DNA of 40,460 bases, taken from IMG/VR virus record IMGVR_UViG_3300024346_000177, positions 1-40,460 of that record; one strand, written 5' to 3'. The stretch's first letter is position 1. The number at the start of each line of letters is the position of its first letter. Below, piece by piece: positions 5,188 through 37,591 of this stretch. This DNA is from a virus. The translations under genes were made by a program, and so were the position numbers. Below the pieces are notes generated by a model. It worked only from the letters and a program-made list of their open reading frames with translations, searched no databases and had not been told where the DNA came from.

Positions 5188-5542
5188 TATAAATTTTTTA
5201 TTAGGGTTAAGTGCTCAGTTAAAGGTGATGCATTGGCAAACTAAAGGTTATTCAAGACATCAAGCTTTTGGTAGTACGTATGACACTTTGAGTGATTTAA
5301 CGGATACTTTCGTTGAAGTTGCAATGGGAAAATATGGTCGTTTTAAGTTAGATGATGAGACAAATACAATAACATTAGTTAATTTATCAGAGTTAAAACC
5401 TGAGGAAATGGTTAATACTGTGAAAAATGCTCTTATCCAATACAGCGAACAATTTGAACCAACCGATACGGACATTTTAAACATTAGAGATGAAATGTTG
5501 GGTTTATTTAACAAATTATCATATCTATTAACTTTAGAATAA
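5171..5542 (+). CDS. short Dps/ferritin-like protein (123 aa)
   Basis: The N-terminal half resembles the first two helices of Dps (ferritin-like, iron-binding DNA-protection) proteins: 'LKVMHWQTKG' followed by a helix containing 'DLTDTFVEVAMG'. His21, His30, Asp45 and Glu49 fall close to the Dps metal ligands. The His30-Asp45 spacing (15) and Asp45-Glu49 spacing (4) equal those of E. coli Dps H63-D78-E82. At 123 residues it is shorter than usual Dps (about 160), and the second helix pair is reduced. Proteins of this type (DUF5856-like, from memory) occur in large T4-like phages. The start overlaps the preceding gene by 17 bases, and a terminator follows 28 bases after the stop. Iron or DNA binding is inferred, not shown. 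Confidence 0.65.
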   Translation: MNINSNINFLLGLSAQLKVMHWQTKGYSRHQAFGSTYDTLSDLTDTFVEVAMGKYGRFKLDDETNTITLVNLSELKPEEMVNTVKNALIQYSEQFEPTDTDILNIRDEMLGLFNKLSYLLTLE

Positions 5543-10412: not shown

Positions 10413-10418
10413 TTGAAC

Positions 10419-11393: not shown

Positions 11394-11409
11394 AAAAATT
11401 AAATATAAG

Positions 11410-19200: not shown

Positions 19201-21436
19201 GAATGTATTTGACGGAGATATTACACAACTTATGTCAATAAATTGTGAGGCAGGAATTGAGGCATTTGATTTAGATAGTCCACATTATTTCTTTTATAAT
19301 GGAGAAATAATGGACCCTGAAGACTCTACTTTAAGTGATTTTTTTACCGACGGTTCTGGAAATTATGGTCCAATACCAATAGATTTAAAATTTGATAATA
19401 ATGGTGCATTTATCAGACAATGTTTAAATTTTAGATTAGGTGATTATTCACAGAAAGTACCTTTTTATTTATGGAATAAATTAGGTGAAGGTTTTGGATC
19501 ATTCGATTCAAATTTATTAGATGACCAACAATGGGATAAAACATCTATTGCCTCGATGAAATTACAAAGATTATTTTCTGTAAGTGATTCATCAAGTACA
19601 ACCACAAATTATGTTATGGCGGATGGTGAAGAAGAGTACTTGTTAAAACCAATTACTAAAACACATGATGGTCATTTTTTTGATGGTGATTATGCGGATA
19701 TGTTGGAGAGATTTGAAAACATTAGTCGCTTTGCTCCAATTACCACCACTAATGGTGCTGTTGGTTATGTTGAAGGTGATATATGGTTACATGTTACATT
19801 AGGTACAACAAAAAATCCATTGGCAGGTGACATATATGTTGTTGTAAATAAAACTTGGGTCAAAGAAACAAATCAATATGTTTCTGGTTCTAAAGAAACC
19901 TTCTTATTCAAAACAATAAATAACTACACAGGAAGCAAACAAGTACTATCAACACCGTTCTTATTTTATTTTGGTTTGAGACCAGATAAAACATCTTTAG
20001 ATACCTTAATAAAATATTACGGACCTAAAGGTGCGTTCCCATCAACAGATTTTTGTTTAGATGTTATAACACCAATACCAACTTTAACTCCAACACCTAC
20101 ACCAACTTTAACACCAACTCTAACACCAACACCAACTCCAACAAAATCTGTATTTGACGTTGAACCAGGATATTATTATTATGCGATGGGAGATTGTAAT
20201 GATTTGAAATATTCTGGTACTGAAAGAACAATTTTTGGATTTGGGGCACCATTAGTAATTCCTGTTTGTATGAGTAATGCACAAATAACTCAATGGTATT
20301 CAACGGCAAATTTTGCACAACAAACTTTATATATTGATTATGATTCCCCATGTGGTTTTGGTGAAGGTTATGTTAGTCCTATAATTGCTAGAAGTTCAAC
20401 ATCAATTACAGAAAATTCAATATATAGTATTGGAGGTAAATGTTTGTTAGCCATTGGAGTTGAAACAGAATATGTAACATCATGGACTGTTAATTTAGAT
20501 GGTCAAACATCTGTTGGAACAGGACAGGCCGCTTGTAGTAGTTGTGACCCACCATTTACAGGATTTACAGCTACAGGATATAGTGGAATAACTTGCGATA
20601 CTGGTGAAAATGTTGTGGTATATTCAATTTTCGGAGCACTCACAATAGACAGAGTCTATGGAATACAGATGTATAGTGGAGGAACGGTAATTGGGGACGC
20701 TAAATGTATGACGTTAAAATCTAATTTAGGTCCACAATATACATTTACAGATCCAGTTGCAGACGGAATAACTGGATATGGTATTAGTGACTCAGGACCA
20801 TTTATTTTAGGTCAACCAATGTTCCAAGGATACGCGGATTGTGCGAATTGTAATCTTAGTGAAAAGAAATATATGATTACTGGTGATAGATGTGATATTA
20901 CAGGTAGCGTGACGATTTGGTCATCAACCTTACCAACAGTAGTAAGTGGTGACACAATGACGGTGAGTGTTGGTGGAACTTTAGTATGTTTCCTTGTAAC
21001 ACAAGCAGATCAATTTACTTCGGCGGTTTATAATGATGTTGGTTTTGCAATAGTGGATACTGGTTGTGACTGTAATGGAAATAGTGGAGGTTCAAATGTA
21101 AATGTAACAAATGTAAATACATCATCAGAATCATACAGCTTAACTAGTGAATGTCAATCACCTCAGAATGAATTTTATTCTGAAACTATTATAGACGAAA
21201 TAGAAATAACATTTAGAGGTGTAAATAACACTTTAGTAGTACCTAATGAAGCTGTTCAATATAGAACAAATGGTGGAGTTTGGGTTCCGTTAACAGTTAC
21301 AACATCTAGTATAACATTATCGGTAACCTTGACATATGGTGATAGAAGTGTTTGTGAAGGTGGAGGAACTTTTGCAGATACATTAGATATAAAAGTAGGT
21401 ACAATAACGGTTCTTAATTATGTTGCGGGACAATAA
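16289..21436 (+). CDS. giant baseplate/tail protein with Thr-Pro linker and C-terminal modules (1715 aa)
   Basis: This is likely a baseplate-anchored structural protein. Its place after gp25-gp6 corresponds to T4 gene 7, but I see no firm gp7 similarity. Near the N-terminus, 'VCGRVTANDGFGIPNAKVSIFV' (about 49-70) and 'TNESGDFMIWGVPLGQQ' (about 147-163) form a carboxypeptidase-regulatory-like beta-sandwich, interrupted by an insertion. Residues about 530-565 are strikingly hydrophobic ('FLQYIFTVAYIFIIETLAG') and could span or touch a membrane. A Thr-Pro linker (about 1262-1286) separates the main body from a C-terminal region (about 1287-1715) of beta-rich modules with CxxC pairs ('CSSC', 'CANC') and 'CDC', like those of the next fibre genes. 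It likely forms the base of the adhesin apparatus. Confidence 0.65.
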   Translation: MQKHRISTNIGKDQRVTVEIKQDYDLLEILSLKFSQQDVYTSLCADYGVVCGRVTANDGFGIPNAKVSIFVPQLTIHSDDPVISALYPYTSISEKDENNYRYNLLPARKQHGGHVPTGTFPDQTDILTREEYLEVYESYYTYTVKTNESGDFMIWGVPLGQQTINVDIDLSDIGCFSLRPYDFIKKGVGIDQFDRYYNFKSGSDMDGLPQIVNFQKTVEVYPFWGNMDLCQIGITRTDFDLLDKGIKIEPISLILASTITDDNGDAIKRSGVIRRKSGYKCNLQTTEGRIEAVRYTGNKIFGSDKVTLYPELEYFNPSESIDTDGTAMVVLPMNMEYVYTNEFGEQEITNDINKGIPTTTVARFRFTLDGNNDKTGTAKYLVPQIREYTKDTLGQNNSGEYNETLLTTYQFSNIFEDYLNIVPPTDLTLDTNHLMNGAYESHKSAAMLGTCSGCDLGVPQDVFYKFIFGKVYTVSSFQGSHYETSGIENFLGLSRKDAFLGIKEIRPSVEDDCASKANYFPTNFGFRNRIKFGLIVSEILLFLQYIFTVAYIFIIETLAGTLWTIARFLGPKDYTFSNHPFFDLATRFIKLAYDLQESGQTVLPLTTYPDCEECTSDVDTVDPSNNTTFVIEEGCRKYDKFYNENLVYAYIWSNNNSYGTNTVPSNSGNKSGFVSEFNSKRISYNYLGTINPYHLLGKPYYPSTPNLKEQLVSPGSGWTIMAAVVGATGTNINIDVSGTNYDVLNVFNTTTRRLPNVVETEGGEFTYNKKTKSGLTEIRDGVITVVPVIDGPSKSIDVIKEWYKRKRVGVFFCGGVVNYSFIDNWLNGILYFFKFDKRVRWDDEAALDLNQRGTKYPRELVFFNVLDKEFYYRATPYNPTSGFIGQQYSGYKEILHPTTFYDVGVRDEFLFEICQDPRVDPTCSVVRDINATSYQDPANIVEYAINYRLDTNNGNFDVGDFFTGTGMGTNVNVFDGDITQLMSINCEAGIEAFDLDSPHYFFYNGEIMDPEDSTLSDFFTDGSGNYGPIPIDLKFDNNGAFIRQCLNFRLGDYSQKVPFYLWNKLGEGFGSFDSNLLDDQQWDKTSIASMKLQRLFSVSDSSSTTTNYVMADGEEEYLLKPITKTHDGHFFDGDYADMLERFENISRFAPITTTNGAVGYVEGDIWLHVTLGTTKNPLAGDIYVVVNKTWVKETNQYVSGSKETFLFKTINNYTGSKQVLSTPFLFYFGLRPDKTSLDTLIKYYGPKGAFPSTDFCLDVITPIPTLTPTPTPTLTPTLTPTPTPTKSVFDVEPGYYYYAMGDCNDLKYSGTERTIFGFGAPLVIPVCMSNAQITQWYSTANFAQQTLYIDYDSPCGFGEGYVSPIIARSSTSITENSIYSIGGKCLLAIGVETEYVTSWTVNLDGQTSVGTGQAACSSCDPPFTGFTATGYSGITCDTGENVVVYSIFGALTIDRVYGIQMYSGGTVIGDAKCMTLKSNLGPQYTFTDPVADGITGYGISDSGPFILGQPMFQGYADCANCNLSEKKYMITGDRCDITGSVTIWSSTLPTVVSGDTMTVSVGGTLVCFLVTQADQFTSAVYNDVGFAIVDTGCDCNGNSGGSNVNVTNVNTSSESYSLTSECQSPQNEFYSETIIDEIEITFRGVNNTLVVPNEAVQYRTNGGVWVPLTVTTSSITLSVTLTYGDRSVCEGGGTFADTLDIKVGTITVLNYVAGQ
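20072..20145 (+). repeat. Thr-Pro linker repeat in the 1715-aa gene
   Basis: About 25 codons of alternating Thr and Pro with occasional Leu connect the body of the protein to its C-terminal modules. It is the shortest of the Thr-Pro tracts in this window. Confidence 0.85.
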
Positions 21437-21452
21437 ATAAAAAAATATAAAA

Positions 21453-23216
21453 TTGGAAGAAAATAAAAAAATAGTATTACCAAGTAAAAAGTTCGCCAAC
21501 GCTCCTGACGAAGAATTAGATTTAAAATTAAATCTTGATACTTCAGAATCTTTGCTAAGAATCGGTGAAAGGGATATTGTATTAGATGTTGCCAAGTTAT
21601 ATTCTAAAGAAAGAAACGATTCCATTAATTATAAAATATATGGTAAGTTAAAAATGGTTTTTCGTAATCTTTATTGTGGAAATACAGATTATACTTATTT
21701 GAAAGATAGATTATATTTGATTGGGGACGGGACCACAACCGACCATACAGGTTTTTTACCGTACGATGAATTTGCATTCATGAGACGTGATGTTTATAGA
21801 GAAGTAAATTTACCTATAACAAGTAACACAGTACCAACTGGTTTTACAAGTAACATTGTTAAATCGGGGTCAACAGCACATACAAATGTAACACCAATTA
21901 ATGCTCCATACCAAAATTGGAATTTATATTTAAGTTATGTATATAGTGGGGACACTAATTTCCCAATGAAATATAGTTTAACTGGCAGTACATATAGTGG
22001 TTTTACCGCTAATGATGGAATACCATTTAGGGTAACATATACAGGTGGAACATATTACGAATTAACAAGTCCTGTTGAACATGGAATGACTAATGGTGAT
22101 TATATAGTTTTATCGGGAGGAACATTTACAGGTAATGCATCGGGAAGAACATATTCAATAACAAGTGTTGGTAACGAAATTTATGGTTCAGAAAAATATG
22201 TTGTTAATATTCTTAAATCACAAATACCTAAAACTAAAATTTTTAATACCATTATGTTTGGTAAGAGATGTTTAGATATAAATAATATAATAGGTTCAAC
22301 ATCAACTTATTATGTACATAAACATAAAACATTAACAAATGTTAATGGATATATTTTAGATAAAGTTGGATTTGAAACTCCAATATGGGAAGATGAAAAA
22401 AAATTAATATTTGAAAATTTTTCAGGTGACAATGATGTTTTGGTTGAAAGAAATAGAATGGAATCAGTTTTATATGATTTTAAAGAACCATTTAAATTAA
22501 GTGGGTTAACAAACAATTTAGGATTTACACCAACAGAAGTTTATGTAACCGCATTGTTTAGAAATGGAAATGGATATTTTAATTACCCACCAAAAGTTGG
22601 TTACAAATTTAATTTTCATGATACATGGATTGACCAACATTTTAATGGAACAACATCAATAGAAAATGGAATGCAAGGAAATACCACAACATTTACTGGT
22701 GCAACATCTGGTTTTACGTTTACTGGTGGTACAGAACTATCAGTTGGTACAGTATTAAACGGTGCCTTTGTTGAATATAATCCAAAGGAGATGAAAGAAA
22801 GAATTGTAAGTGAATCTTTTCATAAAATAACAAACCCAACAACGATTTTTGATTATGGGCAAACTGTTGGGTCATCAGGAGCATCAATTAATAATTTAGA
22901 AGGATTAATATATCAACCACATTACCGAGTTAAATTAAGAGAGTTGTCACCATATGTTGAAACCGCAACAACCAATGATATTTTTAATTTACCTGAAAAC
23001 ACAAATTATGATGCAGATGAAAATGTTTGGAGATGGAGAGATTTATATGACCAAGGTTATGTTGACCAAGATGGTTATGGTACTAATTTTCCGTTTGTAA
23101 ATGGTACACACTATGTTAGAACAAATATTAATTTCTATTTAAGAAATGAAAGATATTATACGAATAAACAGGATGGAGTAACCAACTTCAACAATAGAAA
23201 AAATATTAATTGTTAA
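21453..23216 (+). CDS. unknown virion structural protein (587 aa), TTG start
   Basis: I do not recognise the fold. The N-terminal 90 residues are charged and helical ('PDEELDLKLNLDTSESLLRI'). The middle is rich in Gly, Thr, Ser and Tyr, as is usual for beta-structured tail proteins. The C-terminal part contains 'VWRWRDLYDQGYVDQDGYG' (about 531-549), which may be an attachment motif. No ATG lies near the 5' end: the frame opens at 21441 after an in-frame TAA, and the TTG at 21453 is the best start. The gene abuts the following fibre gene with no gap. By position it could be a connector between the baseplate and the three Thr-Pro fibres, possibly a gp8-like role; this is inference. Confidence 0.65.
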   Translation: MEENKKIVLPSKKFANAPDEELDLKLNLDTSESLLRIGERDIVLDVAKLYSKERNDSINYKIYGKLKMVFRNLYCGNTDYTYLKDRLYLIGDGTTTDHTGFLPYDEFAFMRRDVYREVNLPITSNTVPTGFTSNIVKSGSTAHTNVTPINAPYQNWNLYLSYVYSGDTNFPMKYSLTGSTYSGFTANDGIPFRVTYTGGTYYELTSPVEHGMTNGDYIVLSGGTFTGNASGRTYSITSVGNEIYGSEKYVVNILKSQIPKTKIFNTIMFGKRCLDINNIIGSTSTYYVHKHKTLTNVNGYILDKVGFETPIWEDEKKLIFENFSGDNDVLVERNRMESVLYDFKEPFKLSGLTNNLGFTPTEVYVTALFRNGNGYFNYPPKVGYKFNFHDTWIDQHFNGTTSIENGMQGNTTTFTGATSGFTFTGGTELSVGTVLNGAFVEYNPKEMKERIVSESFHKITNPTTIFDYGQTVGSSGASINNLEGLIYQPHYRVKLRELSPYVETATTNDIFNLPENTNYDADENVWRWRDLYDQGYVDQDGYGTNFPFVNGTHYVRTNINFYLRNERYYTNKQDGVTNFNNRKNINC

Positions 23217-26200
23217 ATGGAATTTCTTAGAAAAAATGTTGATTTAAATATTATTCTTAATCAAGAAACTGATTTCCAAACTAACGCGGGTTGGCAAGAG
23301 AATTTAGTTGCATTTGAAGATGAGATTTTATCAACAATACTTAATCCTGTTGAAAACTACGAAACAGTTAGATATATCCATAAACCTTATGTTTCAAGTG
23401 GGGTTACACAAACCGATATTTGGTTTTATTTTTATTTTTCTACAAGTGGAAACACACCAAACTATGTTCAAGATTATTCCGTACAAGGAATAACATTATT
23501 AGAAAATGAAAAAATGATGAAACAATCATCAGAAAGTTTTTTCAGATTAGAATTTTTTAAAACACCAGGTATTTTAAATAATAGTGGACATACAATAGGT
23601 TATGAACCACCAACAAGACAAAACAGAAAATTAGTTTTTGCAAAAAACCTTGCATTACCATTAGGTGAAAAATATTATTACACACCATTAGGTGGATATG
23701 TTCATTTGCCAGTTTTTAAAGGTTCAAATTATGAGAACAAAGAAAACATGTATTTCTTTTGGTTCCAAGACGAAAGTGTTTTAACTGAAACAAATTTAAG
23801 TGGAACTACTACAGGAAACTCTTTCTTTATGACCGCTAAATTCTTCAATGCAAAAGATGGTAGTATTCAAGATTTCGCAAATGATTGTTTTACTACCGGA
23901 TATACATTGAATGAACAAAGTGATATGTATTATCAAGTTGATATTGATAAAACAGATTATTCATATCAAGTTTATTATTATAACGGTGTAAATAAATGTG
24001 ACCAAGTTGGAATTACTGGTAAACCGGTTAGTTTTTTTGAAAAAGGAGGAGGAAATCGTCCTAATGGAATAAATATTTATTTATGCCCTAACGTAACAGT
24101 AACCCCAACAAATACTGTTACACCAACTGTAACACCTACCGTTACGCCAACAATAACTGTAACACAAACAATTACAAATACAAAAACGCCAACAAAAACA
24201 CCGACAGCAACACCGACAAATACGCAAACGGCAACACCAACTGTAACACCAACTAATACTGTTACACCTACAAATACGGTTACTCCAACGGAGACAATTA
24301 CGCAAACACCAAGTGTTACTGTTACACCTACAAATACGGTTACTCCTACAACAACTGTAACACCAAGTAATACTGTAACACCAAGTGTTACTGTTACAAC
24401 AACCGTTACACCAACAACAACTGTTACTCAAACAACAACCGTTACACCTAGTGTTACTGTAACAAATACCGTTACTCCATCAAATACCGTTACTCCAAGT
24501 GTTACTGTAACAAATACCGTTACTCCAAGTGTTACTGTAACAAATACTGTAACACCTAGTAATACTGTAACACCAAGTGTTACCCCAAGTGTTACACCAA
24601 CAAAAACGGTAACTCCAACTGTTACACCCACATCAACTGAACCTTGTTATGGATTTAATTTAACACCTGTTTTTGATACAACATGTGACGCTAGTGGAGA
24701 CCCAATAACAGCTTATAAAAATACACCAGGTGCCATTTTAGTTAATGATGTTTTAAGAAATAGTTGTGGTGGTACTACATTAGATACAGGACATTATAGT
24801 GATGGTACATACCGTTATACTGTTAATGTTGGAACTGTGACACACAAAGACCTTTGTCCTACACCTCCAAGTCCTACACCTACACCAACTTTAACAAAAA
24901 CACCAACACAAACACCAATTACGTATAATTCCTACTTTGTGGAAGTTCATACTTGCGGTCAATGTGAATATGGAAATAATGGTTTTGGTGGATTAGGTAG
25001 TTATGTTAGATTCCCAAGTACTTATACACCAACTATTGGTAAATTCTACAGGGAATCGGATGGAATTAATCTTTATTCATATAAGATTGTAAATTATTTT
25101 TCAGGTTCTACTAATGGTACTATATTGATCACAACACCATATGATAGTTGTTATGTTGCTTGTGGACAACCTCTACCATCATCAACCCCAACACCAACTT
25201 TAACAAATACACCAACTCCAACAATAGACCCTAATTTCTATTATTTAGCACACGAATATGAGTGTAATGCGGAAGGAAATTGTGAATATATAAGTGAATT
25301 TTATATTGCAAATAATGTTAGTTTAACAGTAAATGAAACATCACAACGATATAGATTAGACCCAACATCAGGATTAATTTTAAGAGTAATGTCTGCTACC
25401 ACACCACAATCACCAGCGTTAATTACAACAATGAGCGGAGCGGGTTATATATCTTGTAGTTCATTGTGTACCCAACCTACACCAACACCAACAGGAACAC
25501 CAGCATCAACACCAAATACCACGCCATATGCAACACCGGTATCAACATCAACAGCGACATCAAGACCAGTTAATTTTACATTAACTACGAGTGAATGTGG
25601 TGCGGGTGGTAATGGTACAGATAAAATAAGTATATCTTTTAATAACTATACAGGTGGTTATAGTGGATACTATTCACATAATCAGACATATTACGCGTCA
25701 TCGGCCGAAGCAATTGCTGGATCATGGACTGCGGTACCTTTTCAATCAAACTACACTACTACAACAATATTTCAAATACCTTTTGGTACATGGTATTTTG
25801 GTGTGAGAGATTTTTATAATACATCTAATGTTACAGTTAAATCATTTACAAATAACTGTGTTACTCAAACACCAACTGTAACACCAACACCAACTGTAAC
25901 ACCACCAATTATATATAACAAATATTATGCGGAAACTCATATTTGCGGTCAATGTGAATATGGGAATAGTTTTATTGGTGGATTAGGTGGTTATGTAACT
26001 TTTGCGAATTTCACACCGACTATTGGTAAATTCTATTTACAATCAAGCGGATTCCAAGATTATTCATATAAGATATTAAATTATTTTAGTGCAGGTTCTA
26101 GTGGTGATTTCATGTGTGGAACAACACCTTATGATAGTTGTTACGATGCTTGTGGTCAACCTTTACCATCACAAACACCAACATCTACACTAACACCAAC

Positions 26201-26552
26201 ACCAACAGTAACTCCACCAACAGCGGCATTGTATGGTTATTATAGAAGTATGGGATTAACGGATTATGATGATTTATGTACAAACGGGATTGGATATATA
26301 ACTAACTCACTTTGGTATAGTACTGGAATAACATTTGCAAATGCTATTGCGTACACTAGGGTTTACTCAGACAACAGTTATACACCATTTAATGGATTAG
26401 ATTTATGGTACGCGGTAACCCAAGACCCTTTATTTAACACAATAGATGGTGTACAATTCAATGCAATTAAAATTGACGCAGATGGATATATTATATCAAC
26501 AGCACTTAAGACTTGTGGTGGTGGCGGAGGTTCCGGTGGAGGACAAACATAA
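23217..26552 (+). CDS. modular Thr-Pro-repeat fibre/adhesin 1 (1111 aa)
   Basis: This is likely a receptor-binding appendage. An N-terminal structural domain (about 1-290, 'MEFLRKNVDLNIILNQETDF') is followed by a Thr-Pro/Thr-Val linker (about 294-474). Several small modules follow, separated by short Thr-Pro spacers: a Cys-bearing module (about 475-550), a 'CGQCEYG' module (about 572-655), an 'YECNAEGNCEY' module (about 670-750), a module at about 780-880, and a second 'CGQCEYG' copy (about 901-985). The last domain spans about 1000-1098. The protein ends in CGGGGGSGGGQT. The two CGQCEYG copies share the 'TPYDSCYxACGQPLPS' end. It starts at the base after the preceding stop. No signal peptide is seen, as expected for a virion protein. 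Confidence 0.72.
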   Translation: MEFLRKNVDLNIILNQETDFQTNAGWQENLVAFEDEILSTILNPVENYETVRYIHKPYVSSGVTQTDIWFYFYFSTSGNTPNYVQDYSVQGITLLENEKMMKQSSESFFRLEFFKTPGILNNSGHTIGYEPPTRQNRKLVFAKNLALPLGEKYYYTPLGGYVHLPVFKGSNYENKENMYFFWFQDESVLTETNLSGTTTGNSFFMTAKFFNAKDGSIQDFANDCFTTGYTLNEQSDMYYQVDIDKTDYSYQVYYYNGVNKCDQVGITGKPVSFFEKGGGNRPNGINIYLCPNVTVTPTNTVTPTVTPTVTPTITVTQTITNTKTPTKTPTATPTNTQTATPTVTPTNTVTPTNTVTPTETITQTPSVTVTPTNTVTPTTTVTPSNTVTPSVTVTTTVTPTTTVTQTTTVTPSVTVTNTVTPSNTVTPSVTVTNTVTPSVTVTNTVTPSNTVTPSVTPSVTPTKTVTPTVTPTSTEPCYGFNLTPVFDTTCDASGDPITAYKNTPGAILVNDVLRNSCGGTTLDTGHYSDGTYRYTVNVGTVTHKDLCPTPPSPTPTPTLTKTPTQTPITYNSYFVEVHTCGQCEYGNNGFGGLGSYVRFPSTYTPTIGKFYRESDGINLYSYKIVNYFSGSTNGTILITTPYDSCYVACGQPLPSSTPTPTLTNTPTPTIDPNFYYLAHEYECNAEGNCEYISEFYIANNVSLTVNETSQRYRLDPTSGLILRVMSATTPQSPALITTMSGAGYISCSSLCTQPTPTPTGTPASTPNTTPYATPVSTSTATSRPVNFTLTTSECGAGGNGTDKISISFNNYTGGYSGYYSHNQTYYASSAEAIAGSWTAVPFQSNYTTTTIFQIPFGTWYFGVRDFYNTSNVTVKSFTNNCVTQTPTVTPTPTVTPPIIYNKYYAETHICGQCEYGNSFIGGLGGYVTFANFTPTIGKFYLQSSGFQDYSYKILNYFSAGSSGDFMCGTTPYDSCYDACGQPLPSQTPTSTLTPTPTVTPPTAALYGYYRSMGLTDYDDLCTNGIGYITNSLWYSTGITFANAIAYTRVYSDNSYTPFNGLDLWYAVTQDPLFNTIDGVQFNAIKIDADGYIISTALKTCGGGGGSGGGQT
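24100..24640 (+). repeat. Thr-Pro repeat tract in fibre 1
   Basis: About 180 codons are dominated by T-P-T-N-T-V and T-P-S-V-T-V units. Synonymous codons vary (aca/acc/acg/act, cca/cct), so the tract is conserved mainly as protein. Short stretches such as the NTVTPSVTV unit near 24460-24560 recur almost unchanged in DNA. The long antisense frames across it are a by-product of the repeat. Confidence 0.9.
24931..25180 (+). repeat. CGQCEYG module, copy 1
   Basis: This is an in-gene duplication. A module of about 83 residues begins 'YFVEVHTCGQCEYG' and ends 'TPYDSCYVACGQPLPS'. Its partner lies 990 bases downstream (25918-26170). A 21-base identical stretch (24953-24973 and 25943-25963) marks the shared start. 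Confidence 0.85.
25918..26170 (+). repeat. CGQCEYG module, copy 2
   Basis: This is the second copy of the duplicated module, beginning 'YYAETHICGQCEYG' and ending 'TPYDSCYDACGQPLPS'. The middle has diverged more than the ends, consistent with a surface or binding function in the centre and a fixed scaffold at the ends. Confidence 0.85.
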
Positions 26553-26598
26553 TGATAAAAAAAAATAAAAGAAACATATAGTTAATTATTTATAAAAG

Positions 26599-29500
26599 GT
26601 GAGAAAAATTAAACATTCAATAAACAGAAAATCAATTCCCAATGTGAAATTAGTTTCACTAACGGGTAAGACATGGTTTGATGCGGACGGAAGTTTATTT
26701 GAATGGTCAGGAAATACAGGTAATTTACCTACGGGATTAACACCAACAACCGGTTATACTGTTTATAACGTAACTGGTGGAACTGTAAATGATGGTTATT
26801 ATAAATGGGGAATACCTACAGGTGACACATGGAATTTAGTTATTGGTACGGGTACAACAGAACAAGAAATACAAAATCATGTTAATAGTCAAATATATGA
26901 TACTCATCAAGTACCATTATTTTTAGAATCATCGGTTGATGAATATGGTCCAATGGTTGATTTTGATGGTGATGTTGAACAAAATACAATTACCGCCAAT
27001 TTTTCATATGATATTAGTTGTACGGATTATACTATCACAGTTTATAACACCACAAATTTTGGTAAATTAAAACAACTTAAAGACGCAACATATTCGGTAC
27101 AATTTAATGGTGGTACAAAATTATCAATGAGTGCAAACCAACCACTTGTTAAAAATGTATCTACAAATGGTGTACAAAATATAAAAATTACGTTGGACTC
27201 AGCTTTCTTAACTTCTCAAGTTGTTAAGAGTGTTAATGTAGATTGTACCCAATTTGTTAATGCATCACCAACTCCAACAACCACTGTAACTGCAACAAAT
27301 ACTGCAACACCAACTGTAACACCAAGTGTAACTGCAACAAATACAAGTACACCAACGGTAACGCCAACTCAAACACCAACAAATACTATAACACCTACAA
27401 ATACTATTACACCAAGTATAACACCAACAAATACTATTACGTCAACTGTTACTCGAACAAGTCTTGCTACGAGAACACCAAATAGTACATCAACACCAAC
27501 AAATACTGCGTCAGTTACACCAACACCGACTAATACTGTAAGTATTGGATTAACACCAACCGCAACACCAACTTTCACACCGACAAACACCACAACACCA
27601 ACTGTTACACCAACAATTACAAATACAAGAACGCCAGCATCGACACCAACACAAACGGCGACTAATACTCAAACACCAACGAATACTGTTACACCAACAG
27701 TTACTGAAACGCCTACGCAAACCCCAACCAACACTGTTACACCAACCAACACTGTTACACCAACGGTTACGGAAACCCCAACAGAAACACCAACACCTAC
27801 GGTGACTGAAACTCCTACGCAAACGCCGACCAACACGATTACACCAACTGAAACACCAACAGAAACACCAACACCAACGGTGACAGAAACTCCTACGCAA
27901 ACCCCAACCAATACTGTTACACCAACAGAAACACCAACACCAACGGTGACAGAAACTCCTACGCAAACCCCAACCAATACTGTTACACCAACAGAAACAC
28001 CAACAGAAACACCAACACCAACGGTGACTGAAACTCCTACGCAAACTCCTACTAATACAGTAACACCGACTAATACTGTCACACCTACTGAAACTGTTAC
28101 ACCAACAGTTACAGAAACGCCTACTCAAACGCCAACTAATACTGTCACACCTACTGAAACTGTTACACCAACAGTTACAGAAACGCCTACTCAAACACCT
28201 ACCAATACTATTACCTCAACAAACACCGTAACACCTACGGTGACAGAAACACCTACGCAAACACCGACTAATACTATTACGCCAACAAATACTATTACCC
28301 CAACCGAAACTCCAACAGAGACACCTACACAAACTCCAACAGAGACACCTACGCAAACGCCAACGAATACTGTTACACCAACGAACACTGTTACACCTAC
28401 TAATACAGTAACTCCAACGAATACAATTACACCAACTGAAACACTTACACAGACCCCAACGAATACTATAACTCAGACAGTTACTGAAACTCCTACGCAA
28501 ACTCCTACTAATACAGTAACACCGACTAATAGTATTACACCTACCGAAACTGTTACACCTACGGTGACAGAAACACCTACGCAAACTCCAACCAATACCG
28601 TTACACCAACGAATACTATTACACCAACTGTAACGCCAACAGTTACTCAAACATTAGACTGTGTGGTGGGCGCTACGTTTACTGAAATTTACGAAGTACC
28701 ATCACCATCATTGACACCAACTAATACTGTTACACCAACACCAACAAACACACCAATACCAACAAGTACTCCGTTACCTAATTTACCAAATTATGAAGGA
28801 CAAAGAACGATTAGTAATGCAATTTGTAGAGCTTCGGATCCCGCATTTGTTACTGATTATTTTAGAAATTATGATGGACATAGCGATAAATTAAATTGGT
28901 TAAACATTATAAATCCTGAAGATAATTCGGTATATAATGTAAGTGAATTGAATGTTAAACAAATATATAGTGGTAATGGTCAACAACTATTACAACGTTA
29001 TGGTGGTGTAAATAATGATGCTTATGCAAGAACAGATTTAAGTTATTATGGTTTATCAACTAACACATTTTATTATGTGAAATATGATGTTTATTGTGTT
29101 AATGATTGTGGATGTGATGTGACACCTGTAGTTGTTGATGCGGTTGGTCAATTCAGAATTTTTAACTTATCAGTTGGGGCGTCAACATCGTCACCTGTTA
29201 AATATAGTACAAATACAAGTGGTCAATATGCATGTTATCCATTCAACGAAACAAAAACAATTCACTATAATATCGCCGAAACTAATATTAATATAGGTGC
29301 ACCATTAGTTGTTGGGTCAACAATTTATTTAGATGGACCTCATACAACTACAGCACCTGCAGGGGCGTACGTTATGAGAAATAATAACAAATATATTGTA
29401 AACTCAAGTGGTGTGGTAACATCTATTGAAACAAATGTTTGTACAACCCCACCGACATTCTCACTTGACTTTAAAAAGGACACATTTACTGTCAATGTGG

Positions 29501-29664
29501 GTACCCCACAAAACACACTAGTTGTTGGAAATTCTTATAATTTATACAACGGTGATTGTAGTGTTGCCACATTAAGAGGTACTGTACAAAGTAGTAGTGG
29601 GTCGGCTGGTAACATAACAATAACATTAACAGATTGGACATTTTATTGTGATAACATAACATAA
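26599..29664 (+). CDS. modular Thr-Pro-repeat fibre/adhesin 2 (1021 aa), GTG start
   Basis: This is likely a second receptor-binding appendage. The N-terminal domain (about 1-220) starts '[17 protein letters not shown]' and contains beta-rich segments. Then comes the longest Thr-Pro tract of the window (about 222-730), interrupted once by a short '[18 protein letters not shown]' stretch. The C-terminal 290 residues hold small modules with paired Cys, including one with '[14 protein letters not shown]' and '[17 protein letters not shown]' (about 900-955). A similar pattern occurs in fibres 1 and 3. No ATG is available near the start. GTG at 26599 is chosen, and an ATT at 26608 behind AAAGGTGAG is a less likely alternative. 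No membrane segment or catalytic motif is seen. Confidence 0.7.
27861..27992 (+). repeat. two perfect tandem 66-base units
   Basis: Bases 27861-27926 and 27927-27992 are identical, each encoding 22 residues of the Thr-Pro pattern. The copy boundary at 27993 continues identically for about 13 bases before diverging, so the perfect tract is slightly longer. This is consistent with recent unequal exchange or slippage. Confidence 0.85.
28069..28196 (+). repeat. 62-base direct repeat, period 66
   Basis: Bases 28069-28130 are repeated exactly at 28135-28196, again with a 66-base period. This copy pair uses different synonymous codons from the 27861-27992 pair, so the two duplications are independent events. 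Confidence 0.85.
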
Positions 29665-29688
29665 GAAATGATAATTATTAAATAACAA

Positions 29689-31998
29689 ATGAGATACTTT
29701 TATGTAAAAATTACCACTGGGACATCACAAGGTCCTTACAACATCTACTACGATGGTGTGAGTACTAACTATGCCACTTTGGTATATACTAGTTCAAATG
29801 CCGTAAACGTATCTTATTCTGATTTAACAACTACGTTAGGTGTTTTAGTTTCTATTCCATTAGGTTCATCAACAATAACATTACAAAACACAAAAGAAAA
29901 TTGTTTATTTGATGTTGTTTATTCGGTACCAACACCAACCCCTACACCAACACCAACAACAACCGCAACACCAACTGTTACGCCTACAAATACGATAACA
30001 CCAACCGTTACTATTACTCCAACAAATACTGTAACTCCAACAAATACTGTAACTCCAACTAATACTATCACACCTACAGTGACAGTTACGCCAAGTGTAA
30101 CACCAACGAATACGGTAACACCTACTAATACTGTAACGCCAACAAATACAGTAACGGCAACACCACCGTCTACACCCGCATCAACACCGGCTTCAACACC
30201 AGCATCAACACCGGCGGTTACACAAACTACTTCATTTATAACAAGCATTTCATTCTCTATTGGATATAATACAACTAATCCAGGATTAAGTTATGGTGGA
30301 TATTCAACACCTTTAGATTCTTGTGTTAGTGGGATTCCAAATATTGTGGGAGTTTATTGTCTTCCTCCTGGTTTAGTAAATGGTGCTGTACTTTATTTAG
30401 ATGCTGCTAGAACTCAACCGTTTGTTTCAACAGGTGGATATTTTATTGCAACAGGAGGAATTGGAATTCAATATTACTTCCAATACACATCATCCGCTGG
30501 TAATATTATAAATTGCAATACCTTACCATCACAAACACCAACCAATACACCAACGTTAACACGAACACCGGCATCAACACCTGCGTCAACACCAAATTCA
30601 ACACCACCATCTACACCGAATTCGACGCCAGCATCAACACCTGCGTCTACACCAGCATCAACACCTGCGTCTACACCAGCATCAACGCCAGCGTCTACAC
30701 CAACATTACCGGCACTTTCGTTGTCTGTAAGTTCAACAACGTTACAAACTTGTTGGAATACTAATAACGCATCGTTCACAGTAAGTGCTACTGGTGGTAA
30801 TGGTGCACCATATGAATATTCAAGAGATAATTCAAATTGGCAATCAAGTGCAACATTTAGTAGTTTGGCGGGTACAACATATACCGCATATGTTAGAAAT
30901 AATAATCGTTTAGGTACCGTTGCAAGTACCTCTGTTAGTAGTTTAGCTAGAAGTCAACCATCTGCAAGTGTTCAAGCGGCAGGTTTCACTAGTTGTTGGA
31001 ATAGTTCAGATGGTTCATTAACATTAAGTGCTTCTGGTGGTTCTGGTGGATACACATATAGTATTAATAATGGGGCGTCGTATCAATCAAGTACCGAATT
31101 CAATAACTTAACTTCAGATACATACTACTATCGAGTAAAAGATAGTAATGGTTGTGAGTCACAGTCATTAGAACAATATGTTTTAGTAACAAATACACCA
31201 AACGCAACATTTACATCTACAAATATATCTTGTAATGGAGGTTCAGACGGAACCATAGCAACCGCGATAATTGATTCTAATGGAGTTTACTATAGATATA
31301 ATGCGGGAAGTAGTTTTACAAACACAGGTGGAACCAGATATTTTGTTGGTCAGTCTAGAGGAAGTTTAACTGCAGGTTCATATACATTTAGAATTTATAA
31401 TTCACCTGAAACATGTTATAAAGATTATACAATTACATTAACTCAACCAACACTACAAACGGCGTCTATTACAAATGTAGTGGGAGCAACAAGTGGTGAC
31501 AATGGTTCGTTAACCATATCTTCAGGTGGAGGAACATGGAATAAAACATATAGATTATATAAAGATAGTGTAACACCATACAATGACTACCCTACGGATA
31601 ATTTAGTTGCAACTTACAGTAACGTAACCGCAGGTTCACCATCATTTAATGTAACAGGTTTAGCTTGTGGATATTATTGGTTACAAGTTACCGATGCAAA
31701 TGGATGTACAACAAATACAATAACATATCAAGTTACTTGTCCTCAAATATATTATATATATCAAGTTATACAATGTAGTAACAACTACATCACATATATG
31801 ACATCACCAGATTTATTACCTTATCAGTTCTTAGGCGGAACAAAAGCGGTTAAAATTAACAGTATATGTTATCAAATTGATTATTACACCACCTCAACGT
31901 ACAATCAAGAATCTTTACATTTGGTAGATGGTCAATATGCTACAATTTACAACACATGTAATGATTGTGTAGGTGGCGGTGGAGGAGCCTCAATTTAA
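29689..31998 (+). CDS. modular Thr-Pro fibre/adhesin 3 with SprB-like repeats (769 aa)
   Basis: This is likely a third receptor-binding appendage. A short N-terminal domain (about 1-80) is followed by a Thr-Pro tract (80-180), a Cys-bearing module (about 181-280), and a second low-complexity tract of T-P-A-S units (281-341). Next come about four beta-sandwich-like repeats (about 341-684) resembling SprB repeats of Bacteroidota adhesins. Key segments are '[13 protein letters not shown]', '[13 protein letters not shown]', '[10 protein letters not shown]' and '[14 protein letters not shown]'. A final Cys-bracketed module (685-769) ends [13 protein letters not shown]. SprB is the surface adhesin of Flavobacterium gliding. 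A phage fibre built of such repeats could come from, or mimic, host surface proteins. That origin is inference. Confidence 0.75.
29929..30230 (+). repeat. Thr-Pro repeat tract in fibre 3 (first)
   Basis: About 100 codons of T-P-T-N-T-V-type units turn at the 3' end into T-P-A-S-T-P-A-S units. It separates the small N-terminal domain from the first module. Confidence 0.88.
30532..30711 (+). repeat. T-P-A-S repeat tract in fibre 3 (second)
   Basis: About 60 codons are mostly T-P-A-S and T-P-N-S units, with alternating gca tca / gcg tct codon pairs recurring as short exact DNA repeats near 30649-30700. It links the first module to the SprB-like repeats. Confidence 0.88.
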
Positions 31999-32048
31999 AA
32001 AAAGATTTTAACTTTATATAGTTCTTAAAATTAATTACATTAGATAAA

Positions 32049-32070
32049 CCTTATAAAGATATTTATAAGG
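32049..32070 (+). promoter_or_regulatory. perfect 9-bp hairpin upstream of the 201-aa gene
   Basis: Bases 32049-32057 and 32062-32070 are exact inverted repeats with the loop gata. The right arm contains TATTTATA (32060-32067). It lies 13 bases before the ATG at 32084, within an 85-base gap after the last fibre gene. No T-run follows, so a promoter or leader element is more likely than a terminator. Confidence 0.5.
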
Positions 32071-32083
32071 GTAACTAAATAAT

Positions 32084-32689
32084 ATGGCGGACTCATTAGG
32101 TTCAATAACATTTACAATTCCTTATACTTCAAGTGAGATTACACAAACTTACTTGAATGACTACGATTATTCAAAAACAGGATTTACTGCCACATCCACA
32201 GGATATACGTTTATTGCTATTGGTACAAGTAGATTATCAGAATTAAAAAAATATGGTTCAGGTGGTTATACTCAATCATTAACGTCAGGTTCAATGAGTG
32301 ACGGAACAACATACACTGGATATACCATTGATACACTTAATTTTCAAGATTTTTCAGATGGCACAACTCAAATTACAGGAACCACACCAAATTTTAGACA
32401 TACAACAACAGGATTTACTATGAGTGGTGCAACCGACGGGTTTTCTACCAAATTTGGATACACCACAGGTAACACTACAAATTTTGCAACTGAATACGTA
32501 ATAAATAATATGTTAACTCGAAACGAACATTTCTTGGGGTTTGTGGAACAACCTACCGTCTATTCGGATGTTTTTGTGGAGAGGGGAAAACAAGGAGTGA
32601 TGGAGAATAACCTTCGATTGGGGGAGATTGACAACATGGGAGAATTAAGCGTTTATGGAAATAAATTCTTTACGATTAAAAAACAATAA
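32084..32689 (+). CDS. unknown virion structural protein (201 aa)
   Basis: I do not recognise this protein. It is rich in Thr, Gly, Ser and Tyr, with many 'TGFT' and 'TGYT' turns typical of beta-structured phage tail proteins. The C-terminal 60 residues are more conserved-looking, with 'VYSDVFVERGKQG', 'ENNLRLGEIDNMGEL' and 'YGNKFFTIKKQ', and may be an attachment domain. It heads a second group of structural genes after the three fibres and is followed after 25 bases by another structural gene. Confidence 0.65.
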   Translation: MADSLGSITFTIPYTSSEITQTYLNDYDYSKTGFTATSTGYTFIAIGTSRLSELKKYGSGGYTQSLTSGSMSDGTTYTGYTIDTLNFQDFSDGTTQITGTTPNFRHTTTGFTMSGATDGFSTKFGYTTGNTTNFATEYVINNMLTRNEHFLGFVEQPTVYSDVFVERGKQGVMENNLRLGEIDNMGELSVYGNKFFTIKKQ

Positions 32690-32714
32690 GATTTATATTT
32701 ATTAATAAAAGAAA

Positions 32715-33635
32715 ATGGCAGTAGGATCATATGGTATAATTAGACCGGCGGACGTTTCACCATCAGATGTGGAGATTTTATATCATTACACAGCTAATAG
32801 AACATCCACGGCCGAGGTAACATTAAAGAAATTAGTATCTGAGGATATATTGACACCTGTGTATCATAATGATGAAACCACAGATTCAACAACCGCACCT
32901 AATAATGAAATTATTGGGGGATTGTATAATTTGAAATTAAAATCTGCGGATTTCTCAGAATTAGGAATTTACACATTACATATTAGACCAAAACAAATTA
33001 GAACTTCAATTACAGATTGTGGTGTTTTGGCTGCATTACCATCGGTTAGAGGATTAGTTATTGATTTGACAAACGTACCTTCACTCGATAAAAATAAGTT
33101 CACACCACAGGGTTTAGTGGGATATAGAGTTGAATATATTAATAGTGCAAATAATCAAAAAGTCCCCAATTTTTACAGGGTAGTAACATCTTCTTTCTTT
33201 TGTGAACCAGTTGTTTCTAACTTAACAACAACAACAGAAAAGGCTATAAGATATCGTTATAAGGATTCTGCGACAAACTTAATGTTTTTAACATTAACAC
33301 CATCTTCAGCACCTTCAAGTAGACCAAATGTGGTTCCATTTATTGGTGAACCAAGTCAAAAAATTATATTAACAAATACCTTCTTTAACCCAACAACAGT
33401 TGAGGTTGAAATGGTTGAACATGATTCATCAACATTGGCACACGCACTTTACGGTAATCAATCTAAGGCGGTTGCACCTGGTATATACACAATTTACGAT
33501 GAGGCTAATAACATCTACAAACAATACAACTTATTTGAAATTAAGGATGAGTTTAATAATAGTCTTTTCGAGGTTAGAGAAGAAAGAACAAATATTGATG
33601 AGACTTTAAATTTAGATAATATCACTAACGCATAA
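32715..33635 (+). CDS. unknown virion structural protein (306 aa)
   Basis: I do not recognise the family. The sequence is a mix of short strands ('GLYNLKLKSADFSELGIYTLHI', about 75-96) without membrane segments or catalytic motifs. It contains two well-separated cysteines. Position among baseplate genes, composition, and the one-base overlap with the following baseplate-like gene (TAATG at 33633-33637) suggest a baseplate or tail-tip component. The ATG at 32715 is preceded by TATTTATT (32696-32703) and A-rich sequence without a Shine-Dalgarno motif. Confidence 0.65.
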   Translation: MAVGSYGIIRPADVSPSDVEILYHYTANRTSTAEVTLKKLVSEDILTPVYHNDETTDSTTAPNNEIIGGLYNLKLKSADFSELGIYTLHIRPKQIRTSITDCGVLAALPSVRGLVIDLTNVPSLDKNKFTPQGLVGYRVEYINSANNQKVPNFYRVVTSSFFCEPVVSNLTTTTEKAIRYRYKDSATNLMFLTLTPSSAPSSRPNVVPFIGEPSQKIILTNTFFNPTTVEVEMVEHDSSTLAHALYGNQSKAVAPGIYTIYDEANNIYKQYNLFEIKDEFNNSLFEVREERTNIDETLNLDNITNA

Positions 33636-36058
33636 TGACAGTAGTAAAAAGAAGAGTTCCAAGTTTGGCCGCAAGCGGTAATCAAACCTTTAGTGATAGT
33701 TTAGTCGGTGTACAAATTACCGACGGAAGCTCACAACTGGCGAACACGAACTTTGCTGTTGATAAAATTATACCAGAAAAAGATAGTAAAAATTTTAAAA
33801 CATCACCATTTTCTGAATTTTTAACATTAGATAATTTAAAGACTGAAGAAGATGTTCCATCTACTCAAGACGGAAGTATTCAAAAAGATGAAAAAATAAA
33901 ATTTAAAGGTGGAATTGATGATGCAGCTAAATCACTTTATGGTTCATTAAAACAAAGATTAAATGTTTCTATTGGTAAAATTATTACAAAATTTCCAGCA
34001 TCAATATTAGTAGATAGTGATAGTCTTGTTAAATCATCAAACTATACCGCATCAGGAATCACATATAACACCGGTTCAACAAGTACAGATTTTTATGTTC
34101 AAAAATCAATTTTATATAATCCGTTTGATGTTGTTTTAGTTACACCAAGTAGTAATACAACACCAGTAACTAAAAATAAAATTAGAAATTTCTATTCTTC
34201 ATATAAAAAATATGTAGTTGATTATAGTGGTCAGACTTATGATGTATTAAATTATACAGAACCTGATGCAAACAATTTAATAAAATTAAGAGTATCGGGA
34301 AAACCATTTGGTACAGGTTCAACAATTAATGATAATTTTTTAATAAGACCAAACGATACGATTAATGAGGAGTTCTTTAAAAATTTAGATGACTTAGAAG
34401 AACTATTATTAAATAGAGAATCTAATCCTAAATTTACCGCATCATTTAAAGTACCTAGAGATAGTTTTGACCAAACGACAACGGATATAATTTCTGTTGA
34501 CGTTTCATGGCCATTATCAAGAGACGGATGGAACCCACAAATTATTGGAACCAACTACGAATATTATGTTAGTAGGTTAAGTGACCTCGCCGATGAGATT
34601 GATGATTACAAATCAAATTTAATTGTTAGATTTTTAACGTCACCACAACTATTTGAATTTGATACCGAAGACCGAAAGGCAGAATCGGTATTTCAATTAT
34701 ACGGACAATCTTTTGATAAAGTTAAAAAATATATAGATAACATCGCCTTCATGAGGAATGTTAGTTATGATGGATTAAATAATGTTCCCGATATTTTATT
34801 AAAAAATTTATCAGAAACATTAGGATTATCTACCGTTAATTTATTTAACGAGAAAAGTTTAAAAGATACATTACATACAAGAACGGACACACAATATTCG
34901 GGAGTGTCGATTGGTAAAACATTAATTGAAGCTGAATATGAATTTTATAGAAGATTATTAACAAACTTAGCTTACCTATATAAATCAAAAGGTACAAGAC
35001 AATCTTTAGAATTTTTTTTAAAATTTTTAGGGGCACCAAATCAGTTAATTAGAATTAATGAATTTGTATACGATGTGAAATCTAAGATTAATTTAAATTA
35101 TTCTGGTGACACATATGAAACAGTACAAGGAACAAAAATAGATACGGAAGTCACTGGATTCACATCAACAGTTGTTACGTATAATATTGTTGGTGGAAGT
35201 ACACAAACGGGTAATACTTATAATACTGGTTTAATAACAGGTTCGACAAATCTAACATTAGATGAATACCCTATTGATGAGAACGGTTTACCAAGGAAAG
35301 TTACAAGTTTAAATTCTGACATCTATTTCCAAAAAGGTTCAGGTTGGAATAACATTACGTTAGACCATAGGTCATCAAATATAATTGATAATGAATTATC
35401 AATATTAACAGGTAGGACTAAAACAATAAAAACAAAACCAAAAGATTATACGTATGGTGAAGACTATTTTGATAGTTTCAGAACTTTAGATGGTCTTGAT
35501 TATGGTTTTGAATTAGAAAAAAGAATTGACAATAAAAAAGTAAGTGTTAGTAATGATGAAACATTATCTAAATTTATTTTAAATAGAAAAAATATTGAGG
35601 TTTATTTGGTACCGTCACAAGGAATTGAATATGACATATATAGACAAGGTAGAAATGAAGAATTAACGTTTGGTAATTTAACACCCCAAACCGGTAGAAC
35701 CTTTGAAAATTTTATTGACACCGTATTGGGTCAAGTAATTACTAATTCAAACAGTGTTAAATTTAGTAAATCTTATACGGCATTAACTAAAGTCTTTTAT
35801 GAATACTCAACTAATACGGGATTTACTCCATATAATTTTACATCGGTAAATGAATTCATTAATAAAATGAGTCCATATTGGATTCAAGTTGTTGAACAAT
35901 TTGTTCCTGCAACTACATTATGGACAGGTGGTAATTTAATTGGAAACAACATTTTTAATAGGTCAAAATACGATTATAGAAAACCAAGATATGGTATCTC
36001 ATATACTGGTAACACAACTTACGAAAGTGGTACATATAATTGTGAAGAAATAGAATAA
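33635..36058 (+). CDS. baseplate protein with P2 gpI-like region (807 aa)
   Basis: This is probably a baseplate wedge component. Residues about 312-480 look like the phage P2 gpI / contractile-injection-system wedge family. A helical stretch 'LADEIDDYKSNLIVRFL' is followed by 'FYRRLLTNLAYLYKSKGTRQ' and 'SLEFFLKFLGAPNQLIRINEF' (about 463-483), matching the 'KGT...LLG' pattern of that family. In contractile systems this family corresponds to the T4 gp7 position next to gp6. The N-terminal 300 residues and the C-terminal 320 are not recognised; the latter ends in 'SPYWIQVVEQFVPATTLW' and a Tyr-rich tail. The gene overlaps the previous one by one base. Confidence 0.65.
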   Translation: MTVVKRRVPSLAASGNQTFSDSLVGVQITDGSSQLANTNFAVDKIIPEKDSKNFKTSPFSEFLTLDNLKTEEDVPSTQDGSIQKDEKIKFKGGIDDAAKSLYGSLKQRLNVSIGKIITKFPASILVDSDSLVKSSNYTASGITYNTGSTSTDFYVQKSILYNPFDVVLVTPSSNTTPVTKNKIRNFYSSYKKYVVDYSGQTYDVLNYTEPDANNLIKLRVSGKPFGTGSTINDNFLIRPNDTINEEFFKNLDDLEELLLNRESNPKFTASFKVPRDSFDQTTTDIISVDVSWPLSRDGWNPQIIGTNYEYYVSRLSDLADEIDDYKSNLIVRFLTSPQLFEFDTEDRKAESVFQLYGQSFDKVKKYIDNIAFMRNVSYDGLNNVPDILLKNLSETLGLSTVNLFNEKSLKDTLHTRTDTQYSGVSIGKTLIEAEYEFYRRLLTNLAYLYKSKGTRQSLEFFLKFLGAPNQLIRINEFVYDVKSKINLNYSGDTYETVQGTKIDTEVTGFTSTVVTYNIVGGSTQTGNTYNTGLITGSTNLTLDEYPIDENGLPRKVTSLNSDIYFQKGSGWNNITLDHRSSNIIDNELSILTGRTKTIKTKPKDYTYGEDYFDSFRTLDGLDYGFELEKRIDNKKVSVSNDETLSKFILNRKNIEVYLVPSQGIEYDIYRQGRNEELTFGNLTPQTGRTFENFIDTVLGQVITNSNSVKFSKSYTALTKVFYEYSTNTGFTPYNFTSVNEFINKMSPYWIQVVEQFVPATTLWTGGNLIGNNIFNRSKYDYRKPRYGISYTGNTTYESGTYNCEEIE

Positions 36059-36079
36059 TAATATAAATATCTATAAACT

Positions 36080-37591
36080 ATGAGCTTTTTAAATACAGGA
36101 TATTCAGCAACGGTTGCTGCAAGATTAACACAAAAGGGTAGAAACTCTATTGCGAAAGGTAATTTTGTTGTAAGTTACTTTGCGGTGGGAGATTCTGAAT
36201 ACAATTATAGTGGTGGAACGTCAAGTCAAAACGTATTGGCGCCGTTTGATAAAGATAGTCATGTAAAATATCCATTGTGGTATACAAGTGGAAGTACGTT
36301 TTTTGGAATACCTGTTGATGGCTCAACAAAAACTATATGCAATAATTTAGTTACCGCAAATAGTGATTGGACATTGAGTACAGTTTGGGATAAAAATCCT
36401 ATTGGGGATGCCTCAAATTCGTATACAACAAATCCATATGTAGGTGTTAAAAATTTATTAGGTTATTCATCATCTTCAGGACAAACATATAACACAGGTA
36501 CAACAATATATGATACCACAGGAACCGCAGTGATTATTTCTCCTGAAGAACAAAAGGCAATTGCGATATTACATTATACACAGAATGGAACTACAAGTGA
36601 CCCATACAGATTTTTTAAGTATGATGATTACATCTGTATAGATAACACAACAGGTCAAACATCGTTTAATGTTACATTGACCTCAATTATGTATCACAGA
36701 TCATCATTGGGAACATCTGGTGCAACATTTACAATGGGAACCGTTGATAAAAAAATGGTATCTAATTATAATTCAAGATATGAATTACCATACAGAGATT
36801 TAGTAGATTCACAAACTAATAGAGTTGGTAAAATATTTCACAATCAAAAACTTGTAGTATTTGATGATGAGGAAATTGTTGCAGCATTAGATACATCATC
36901 ATCAAGATTTTATACATTAACGGCACCAAAGGTTGATGTTATTGTAACCAATAATGATTATATAACCACATTAACAACAGGAAAAACACTTTGGGTTACA
37001 TATAAATTTAGTGGCGGTACAGTATCAGATGATTTACCTTGTAATTATTTTATGAAAGTAACAGGATCAACTAACAATGAGAATGTTACCGTTAAATTTA
37101 ATAGTGGTGGATTTAAACATTTAAATAGTGGTTATACCGCAACAGAATTTCATATATTACATCAATTAACAGATAATGGCGTTCAACCAACACCAAATTT
37201 ATGGAAGATTAGAAACTATACAAGTGACTTAGGTTCAATAAATGATTTAAAAACCGGATTTACGTTTACTATTAATCAAACCAAATTTGCTGACACAACA
37301 ACATATTCGTCAGGTCTATCTTCTTTTGGAACAGATAGGGCATTGACAGGAGCCACAATAGGTGGTACAGTTACATTGGTAAGATCAAGTGATATTGAAG
37401 AAATGGTGTTTAATTTAAATCTTCCATCAGATAAATTCACAACATCTCAAAACCCAACATTTACAGGTACATCTAAAATAACTGAAGTGGCATTACTTAA
37501 TTCCAATAAAGAAACATTGGCCATGGGTAAATTAGCCTCTCCGGTAACAAGAAGTGGTAATCAGGTAATTCAAGTTAAAATAGATTTCTAA
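36080..37591 (+). CDS. unknown tail/baseplate structural protein (503 aa)
   Basis: The N-terminus 'ATVAARLTQKGRNSIAKGNF' followed by 'SYFAVGDSEYNY' resembles the start of conserved structural proteins in large myoviruses, from memory rather than from a search. The C-terminus 'KITEVALLNSNKETLAMGKL' followed by 'QVIQVKIDF' resembles the closing strands of tail-collar/fibre-base proteins. The middle is Thr/Ser/Tyr-rich and beta-like. No signal peptide or catalytic motif is seen. It is the last gene of the structural block. A weak AT-rich hairpin follows. Confidence 0.65.
   Translation: MSFLNTGYSATVAARLTQKGRNSIAKGNFVVSYFAVGDSEYNYSGGTSSQNVLAPFDKDSHVKYPLWYTSGSTFFGIPVDGSTKTICNNLVTANSDWTLSTVWDKNPIGDASNSYTTNPYVGVKNLLGYSSSSGQTYNTGTTIYDTTGTAVIISPEEQKAIAILHYTQNGTTSDPYRFFKYDDYICIDNTTGQTSFNVTLTSIMYHRSSLGTSGATFTMGTVDKKMVSNYNSRYELPYRDLVDSQTNRVGKIFHNQKLVVFDDEEIVAALDTSSSRFYTLTAPKVDVIVTNNDYITTLTTGKTLWVTYKFSGGTVSDDLPCNYFMKVTGSTNNENVTVKFNSGGFKHLNSGYTATEFHILHQLTDNGVQPTPNLWKIRNYTSDLGSINDLKTGFTFTINQTKFADTTTYSSGLSSFGTDRALTGATIGGTVTLVRSSDIEEMVFNLNLPSDKFTTSQNPTFTGTSKITEVALLNSNKETLAMGKLASPVTRSGNQVIQVKIDF

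Follow-up and report, generated by a model that had tools for sequence, protein, structure and literature searches.

Evidence for in-register turnover of a Thr-X dipeptide tract in a probable tail-fibre-like phage protein

In phage T4, duplications in the tail-fibre adhesin gp37 reportedly expand the host range, to judge by the title of a 1996 paper by Tetart et al., cited in PMC9603124 and PMC8573959. The locus described here resembles this case in that a short part of a probable tail protein has been duplicated in frame, in a phage with T4-type genes. It differs in that the receptor-binding tip is duplicated in gp37, with a known phenotype, whereas the duplicated region is a linker here, and is known from its sequence alone. 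The locus lies in a window of 40,460 nucleotides, which is the whole stretch of DNA analysed, and corresponds to positions 1 to 40,460 of the IMG/VR virus record IMGVR_UViG_3300024346_000177.

The tail-fibre proteins of Escherichia coli prophages contain collagen-like or coiled-coil segments that vary in length by whole repeat steps (PMC3368898). The likeness to the present locus lies in the low-complexity stalk between the fibre domains and in the whole-step length differences among relatives. In the prophage fibres, however, the steps are of three residues (collagen) or seven (coiled coil), whereas the step in the window is the two-residue Thr-X, in a tract with neither Gly-X-Y nor coiled coil, and tracts of this type reach 471-611 aa; the comparison concerns architecture and length change, rather than sequence. 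In the crAss-like phages, BACON domains form tandem repeats in tail-associated proteins (PMC6949934), which also represents a tandem expansion in a protein of this kind, but one of folded domains rather than low-complexity dipeptides.

Low-complexity regions of prokaryotes and phages have been attributed, as is the tract described here, to slippage and recombination, and the longest such region in a survey of 102 phage proteomes was of 115 aa (PMC6821194). By contrast, the tracts of the window and its relatives keep a strict Thr register over as many as 400-600 aa, a length that is therefore unusual in relation to the maximum of this survey. Literature searches for Thr-Pro or Thr-X tracts in phages recovered no relevant paper in the collection searched.

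The Thr-X tract and the gene that contains it

The features of the locus are listed in Table 1. The ORF that contains the tract is found inside a cluster of tail and baseplate genes, in which the gp25-like and baseplate wedge genes precede it.

Table 1. Coordinates of the Thr-X tract, its exact repeats, and the associated features of the window
Feature	Position	Strand	Remarks
ORF containing the tract	26599..29664	+	1021 aa, GTG start; encodes a probable tail-fibre-like virion protein; follows the gp25-like and baseplate wedge genes
N-terminal region of ORF 26599..29664	26599..27246	+	Conserved across 7 aligned relatives
PKD/Ig-like domain, residues 132-216	26992-27246	+	Last 85 residues of the N-terminal region; weak PKD support
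Thr-X dipeptide tract, 471 aa	27256..28668	+	Joins the N-terminal region to the C-terminal domain
Exact 66-bp tandem array, 2.3 copies, 153 bp	27853..28005	+	87-bp match: 27853-27939 = 27919-28005
49-bp exact repeat, distance 456	28027..28075 and 28483..28531	+	Absent from the original prediction
Second exact period-66 duplication, 62-bp match	28069..28196	+	28069-28130 = 28135-28196; also present in IMGVR_UViG_3300046805_000353
Second short Thr-X linker, 27 aa	28699..28779	+	
C-terminal domain	28780..29664	+	Predicted beta-rich, low confidence
Thr-X tract, 112 aa, in upstream neighbour ORF 23217-26552	24081..24416	+	
Thr-X tract in downstream neighbour ORF 29689-31998	29928..30160	+	

The Thr residues of the tract occupy alternate positions almost without exception, with one parity holding 221 of the 223 Thr found in the 463 tract residues analysed. 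The original prediction, which was made from the sequence alone, described this region as a Thr-Pro tract, which is accurate insofar as Pro is the main partner of Thr (82 pairs), but the array is of a broader Thr-X type, in which V, N, E, Q, and I are the other principal partners. The same alternation is visible in the DNA: of the lags tested, those divisible by 6 give an identity of the tract with itself of 0.49-0.62, in comparison with 0.19-0.35 for the others.

A 13-residue motif is present in 10 copies, at successive spacings of 102, 78, 66, 78, 84, 66, 66, 240, and 84 bp. The 66-base period that had been proposed for the tract holds for both of its exact duplications, but not as a general period, given that only three of the nine motif spacings are of 66 bp. 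The 66-bp unit is local, and what stays constant throughout is a register of 6 bp (two codons). The idea of a conserved structural period of 22 residues was rejected, given that the spacing in the window varies between 66 and 240 bp, and is different in each relative.

Judging by its composition, the tract is best read as an extended linker rich in Thr and Pro. No collagen-like Gly-X-Y repeat was found in the 463-residue tract, which contains a single Gly. The general O-glycosylation system of the Bacteroidota recognizes the motif D-(S/T)-hydrophobic, and this target is absent from the same 463 residues, in which there is no Asp. Three antisense ORFs (27550-28194, 27669-28082, and 28216-28650) were discarded as shadows of the repeat, which translate only to low-complexity mirror sequence.

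The neighbours and the architecture of the ORF indicate that its product is likely to be a tail-fibre-like protein. It is filed here as fibre-like by context, and not as a member of a family, because no known tail-fibre family was matched. The Pfam search of ORF 26599-29664 returned no match, and the search of its protein against 50,697 phage records was equally negative, while the only PHROG match was phrog_15511, a group of unknown function, with the best stretch falling within the low-complexity part. Searches of the PDB by sequence gave no credible match, and the C-terminal domain was absent from the bacterial and archaeal genome collection searched.

The structure models of the N- and C-terminal parts have a low mean pLDDT (43 and 46), and it is on these models that the test for a trimeric beta-rich fold rests. 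The best Foldseek match of residues 132-216, in a low-confidence model, is a PKD-containing chain (E 0.0027). Pfam PKD_4 is matched in two relatives, at a marginal level (best E 0.019), and the PKD motif WGDG or WGDD is present in the relatives L005, L006, and L012.

Thr-X tracts are also found in both neighbouring ORFs (Table 1) and, in a short form, in ORF 16289-21436. The downstream ORF 29689-31998 combines SprB repeats (PF13573, E 1e-12) with TPAS-type tracts, and the SprB family, which is named for the Flavobacterium gliding adhesin, provides a weak hint of a Bacteroidota host. The nearest phage records by the baseplate wedge protein, at 25-29% identity, are an uncultured 484-kb phage, the Flavobacterium phage immuto, and the Microcystis phage Mel-JY01, and the 20 kb on either side of the baseplate gene in these records yielded no Thr-X tract.

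Elsewhere in the window, the small and large subunits of a class I ribonucleotide reductase are encoded at 10413-13851, immediately before the baseplate genes, and a small ORF at 5171-5542, upstream of the gp32-like gene, corresponds to DUF5856 (PF19174, E 3.5e-17), which is of unknown function.

Exact copies and a one-unit length difference

The original prediction held that bases 27861-27926 are identical to 27927-27992, and that 28069-28130 recur at 28135-28196. Both matches were recovered, the second at exactly 62 bp, and the first as part of a longer match of 87 bp at a distance of 66. The chance level was established by 1000 synonymous-codon shuffles, which leave the protein sequence and codon counts of the tract unchanged. 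In these shuffles, the longest exact repeat had a mean of 24 bp and a maximum of 45, and the longest exact repeat at period 66 had a mean of 16 and a maximum of 38. The observed copy of 87 bp exceeds the overall maximum, and the protein pattern therefore does not explain the exact copies. A hairpin was considered as a possible driver of slippage, given that the array folds better than the shuffles (z -3.6), but this involves only 4-5 bp stems, which are counted twice in duplicated sequence, and the hairpin was thus judged to be unconvincing.

Outside the exact copies, Thr residues separated by 22 positions use the same codon 33% of the time, versus 32% expected from codon usage, which places the older copies at or near synonymous saturation, with the protein pattern being kept. 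The prediction of a single protein pattern with many synonymous changes was right in this respect, and the shuffle test and the codon saturation together support the view that old repeats have been maintained at the protein level, with recent exact duplications on top. When the copies of the 13-codon motif in the window are compared in pairs, the number of identical codons varies between 4 and 13, which indicates a range of ages, with a few very recent copies.

With regard to a possible codon choice against perfect repeats, the identity of Thr codons two and four residues apart (0.31 and 0.26) is near or slightly under the expected 0.32. The motif copies share 7.3 and 6.6 of 13 codons within genomes, and 7.0 between the window and the relative L003, a likeness that is no higher within genomes than between them, and which thus argues against a general concerted evolution.

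When the N- and C-terminal regions were used to search IMG/VR, they recovered the record IMGVR_UViG_3300046805_000353 (L002, L008, and others), which differs from the window by 23 substitutions and one true indel over 15.6 kb, with zero substitutions from 22575 to 33229. The indel is of exactly 66 bp, with positions 27853-27918 of the window missing from the second record, which encodes a protein of 999 aa, rather than 1021. The 66-bp change may represent either a gain or a loss, because at the corresponding place in L003, whose N-terminal region is 88% identical, two diverged copies are present at a 66-bp spacing.

The original prediction of ongoing length change, which was to be sought in copy-number variants, is supported by this single pair of records, one exact 66-bp unit apart (a collapse of the short allele being possible), and by independent exact duplications in the relatives. 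As for the 23 substitutions, 19 are found in 36000-37000 and four in 33230-33329, and the first 10.6 kb are free of them, a distribution that looks like patchy recombination.

Tracts in related phages

The contigs fetched provided 53 non-redundant Thr-X tracts with a length of 100 aa or more, and each was compared with 200 synonymous shuffles. The longest exact repeat was longer than in all 200 shuffles in 29 of the 53 tracts, and reached p<0.05 in 40. The repeat spacings range from 18 to 582 bp, and are multiples of 6 in 52 of the 53 tracts, a regularity that is for the most part a consequence of the protein pattern, and so does not independently prove a mechanism. On average, the tracts of the relatives adhere to the Thr-X register at 97%. 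L003 has its own exact duplication, of 71 bp at a distance of 84, and one tract differs by 6-bp steps between L025 and L028, which are 97-98% identical.

The total Thr-X length varies from 141 to 1040 aa among the complete N-terminal homologues, which contradicts an invariant tract length in all the relatives, the observation that had been expected to count against the original prediction, with several sets of near-identical records keeping a single length. The tract length is unchanged in four such sets (L087/L089/L090/L092, L098/L099, L054/L058, and L055/L068/L069/L071), and L020 and L073, which are 94% identical, align with no gap over 14.4 kb. The change in length appears to be real, yet too infrequent to separate most of the records of one phage. 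The longest tract found, of 611 aa, is located at L054:8244 (- strand), in a 174-kb viral contig, and is of equal length in L058, which comes from another record.

Probable turnover in register and its alternatives

In this large phage with T4-type baseplate genes, the folded modules of the probable tail-fibre-like protein are most likely separated by an extended Thr-X linker or stalk, probably a disordered one, and it is this linker that is turned over in register. There is good support for the turnover of its repeat in frame. The built-in 6-bp register (ACN NNN) would allow misaligned copies to pair in register, so that the segments exchanged would always be a whole number of two-codon steps. 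Segments would then be added or removed by replication slippage or unequal homologous exchange, leaving both the reading frame and the Thr register unshifted. The window encodes gp32-like, UvsX/RecA-like, and RuvC-like proteins, which may supply the recombination functions. New copies would be identical at first, and would subsequently undergo synonymous drift, with selection keeping the Thr-X composition.

The tract provides a natural and easily scored system for the rate at which a virus alters the length of a low-complexity linker, for which the relatives supply dozens of tracts with recent duplications, and in which two records of one phage are one unit apart. If the length or the joints affect host range, the tracts would reveal the remodeling of attachment proteins by large uncultured phages.

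The length of the tract may itself be adaptive, with the gain and loss of units tuning how far the fibre reaches or how flexible it is, and hence the host range, as in contingency loci. The variation from 141 to 1040 aa among relatives that keep the register at 97% on average is consistent with this reading, as is the expansion of host range reported for the gp37 adhesin of T4. In T4, however, it is the receptor-binding tip that is duplicated, and not a linker, while one length is retained in most of the near-identical records, and the neutral length drift of a tolerant linker fits the same data, so that an adaptive role of length seems rather doubtful.

The N-terminal region of the ORF is joined via Thr-X tracts to unrelated C-terminal parts in L005, L006, L007, L012, and others, and in L010 and L011 the C-terminal domain of the window is preceded by another upstream region, to which it is joined at Thr-X tracts. 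The tracts lie at the joints between exchangeable modules, a pattern of modular exchange. A stronger reading, which is rather unlikely, is that the Thr-X tracts, being found in four structural genes of the window and in many related phages, have evolved as recombination joints, where in-frame and in-register exchange would alter the length of the linker and swap the terminal domains.

It is quite unlikely that the length difference is an assembly artefact, in which one copy number exists everywhere and one of the two records has collapsed or expanded the repeat. The two-copy state is marked by its own junction 23-mers, which are absent from IMGVR_UViG_3300046805_000353 and must derive from reads; as this junction is unique from 23 bp, repeat collapse cannot make it from the one-copy sequence. 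The usual reads for such data are of approximately 150 bp, and would span the 87-bp repeat. The one-copy state, on the other hand, is distinguishable only with words of at least 89 bp, and this allele could thus represent a collapse if the longest word of the assembler were shorter. Contig ends are, in addition, enriched in Thr-X tracts (9 of 29 downstream ends, versus 12.8% expected, p=0.008), but the exact duplications beyond the synonymous null are found in many independent contigs at varied spacings, which collapse cannot make. The concern that the exact copies are an artefact hardly applies, then, to the two-copy allele, but does extend to the one-copy allele.

It is also improbable that two ancestral copies were made identical in the window by gene conversion, rather than newly duplicated, given that, despite the two diverged copies of L003, the one-unit allele would require an additional loss, and the motif copies are not more alike within a genome (7.3 and 6.6 of 13 codons) than between genomes (7.0).

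Another type of higher-order repeat was observed at L096:8805-9498, where a 69-bp unit is present in 10 copies, with a NCEFDVDLGVVTATPTPTP-like module alternating with short Thr-X segments, and a comparable module, INC(V/S)FGISV, is found in L004 and L007.
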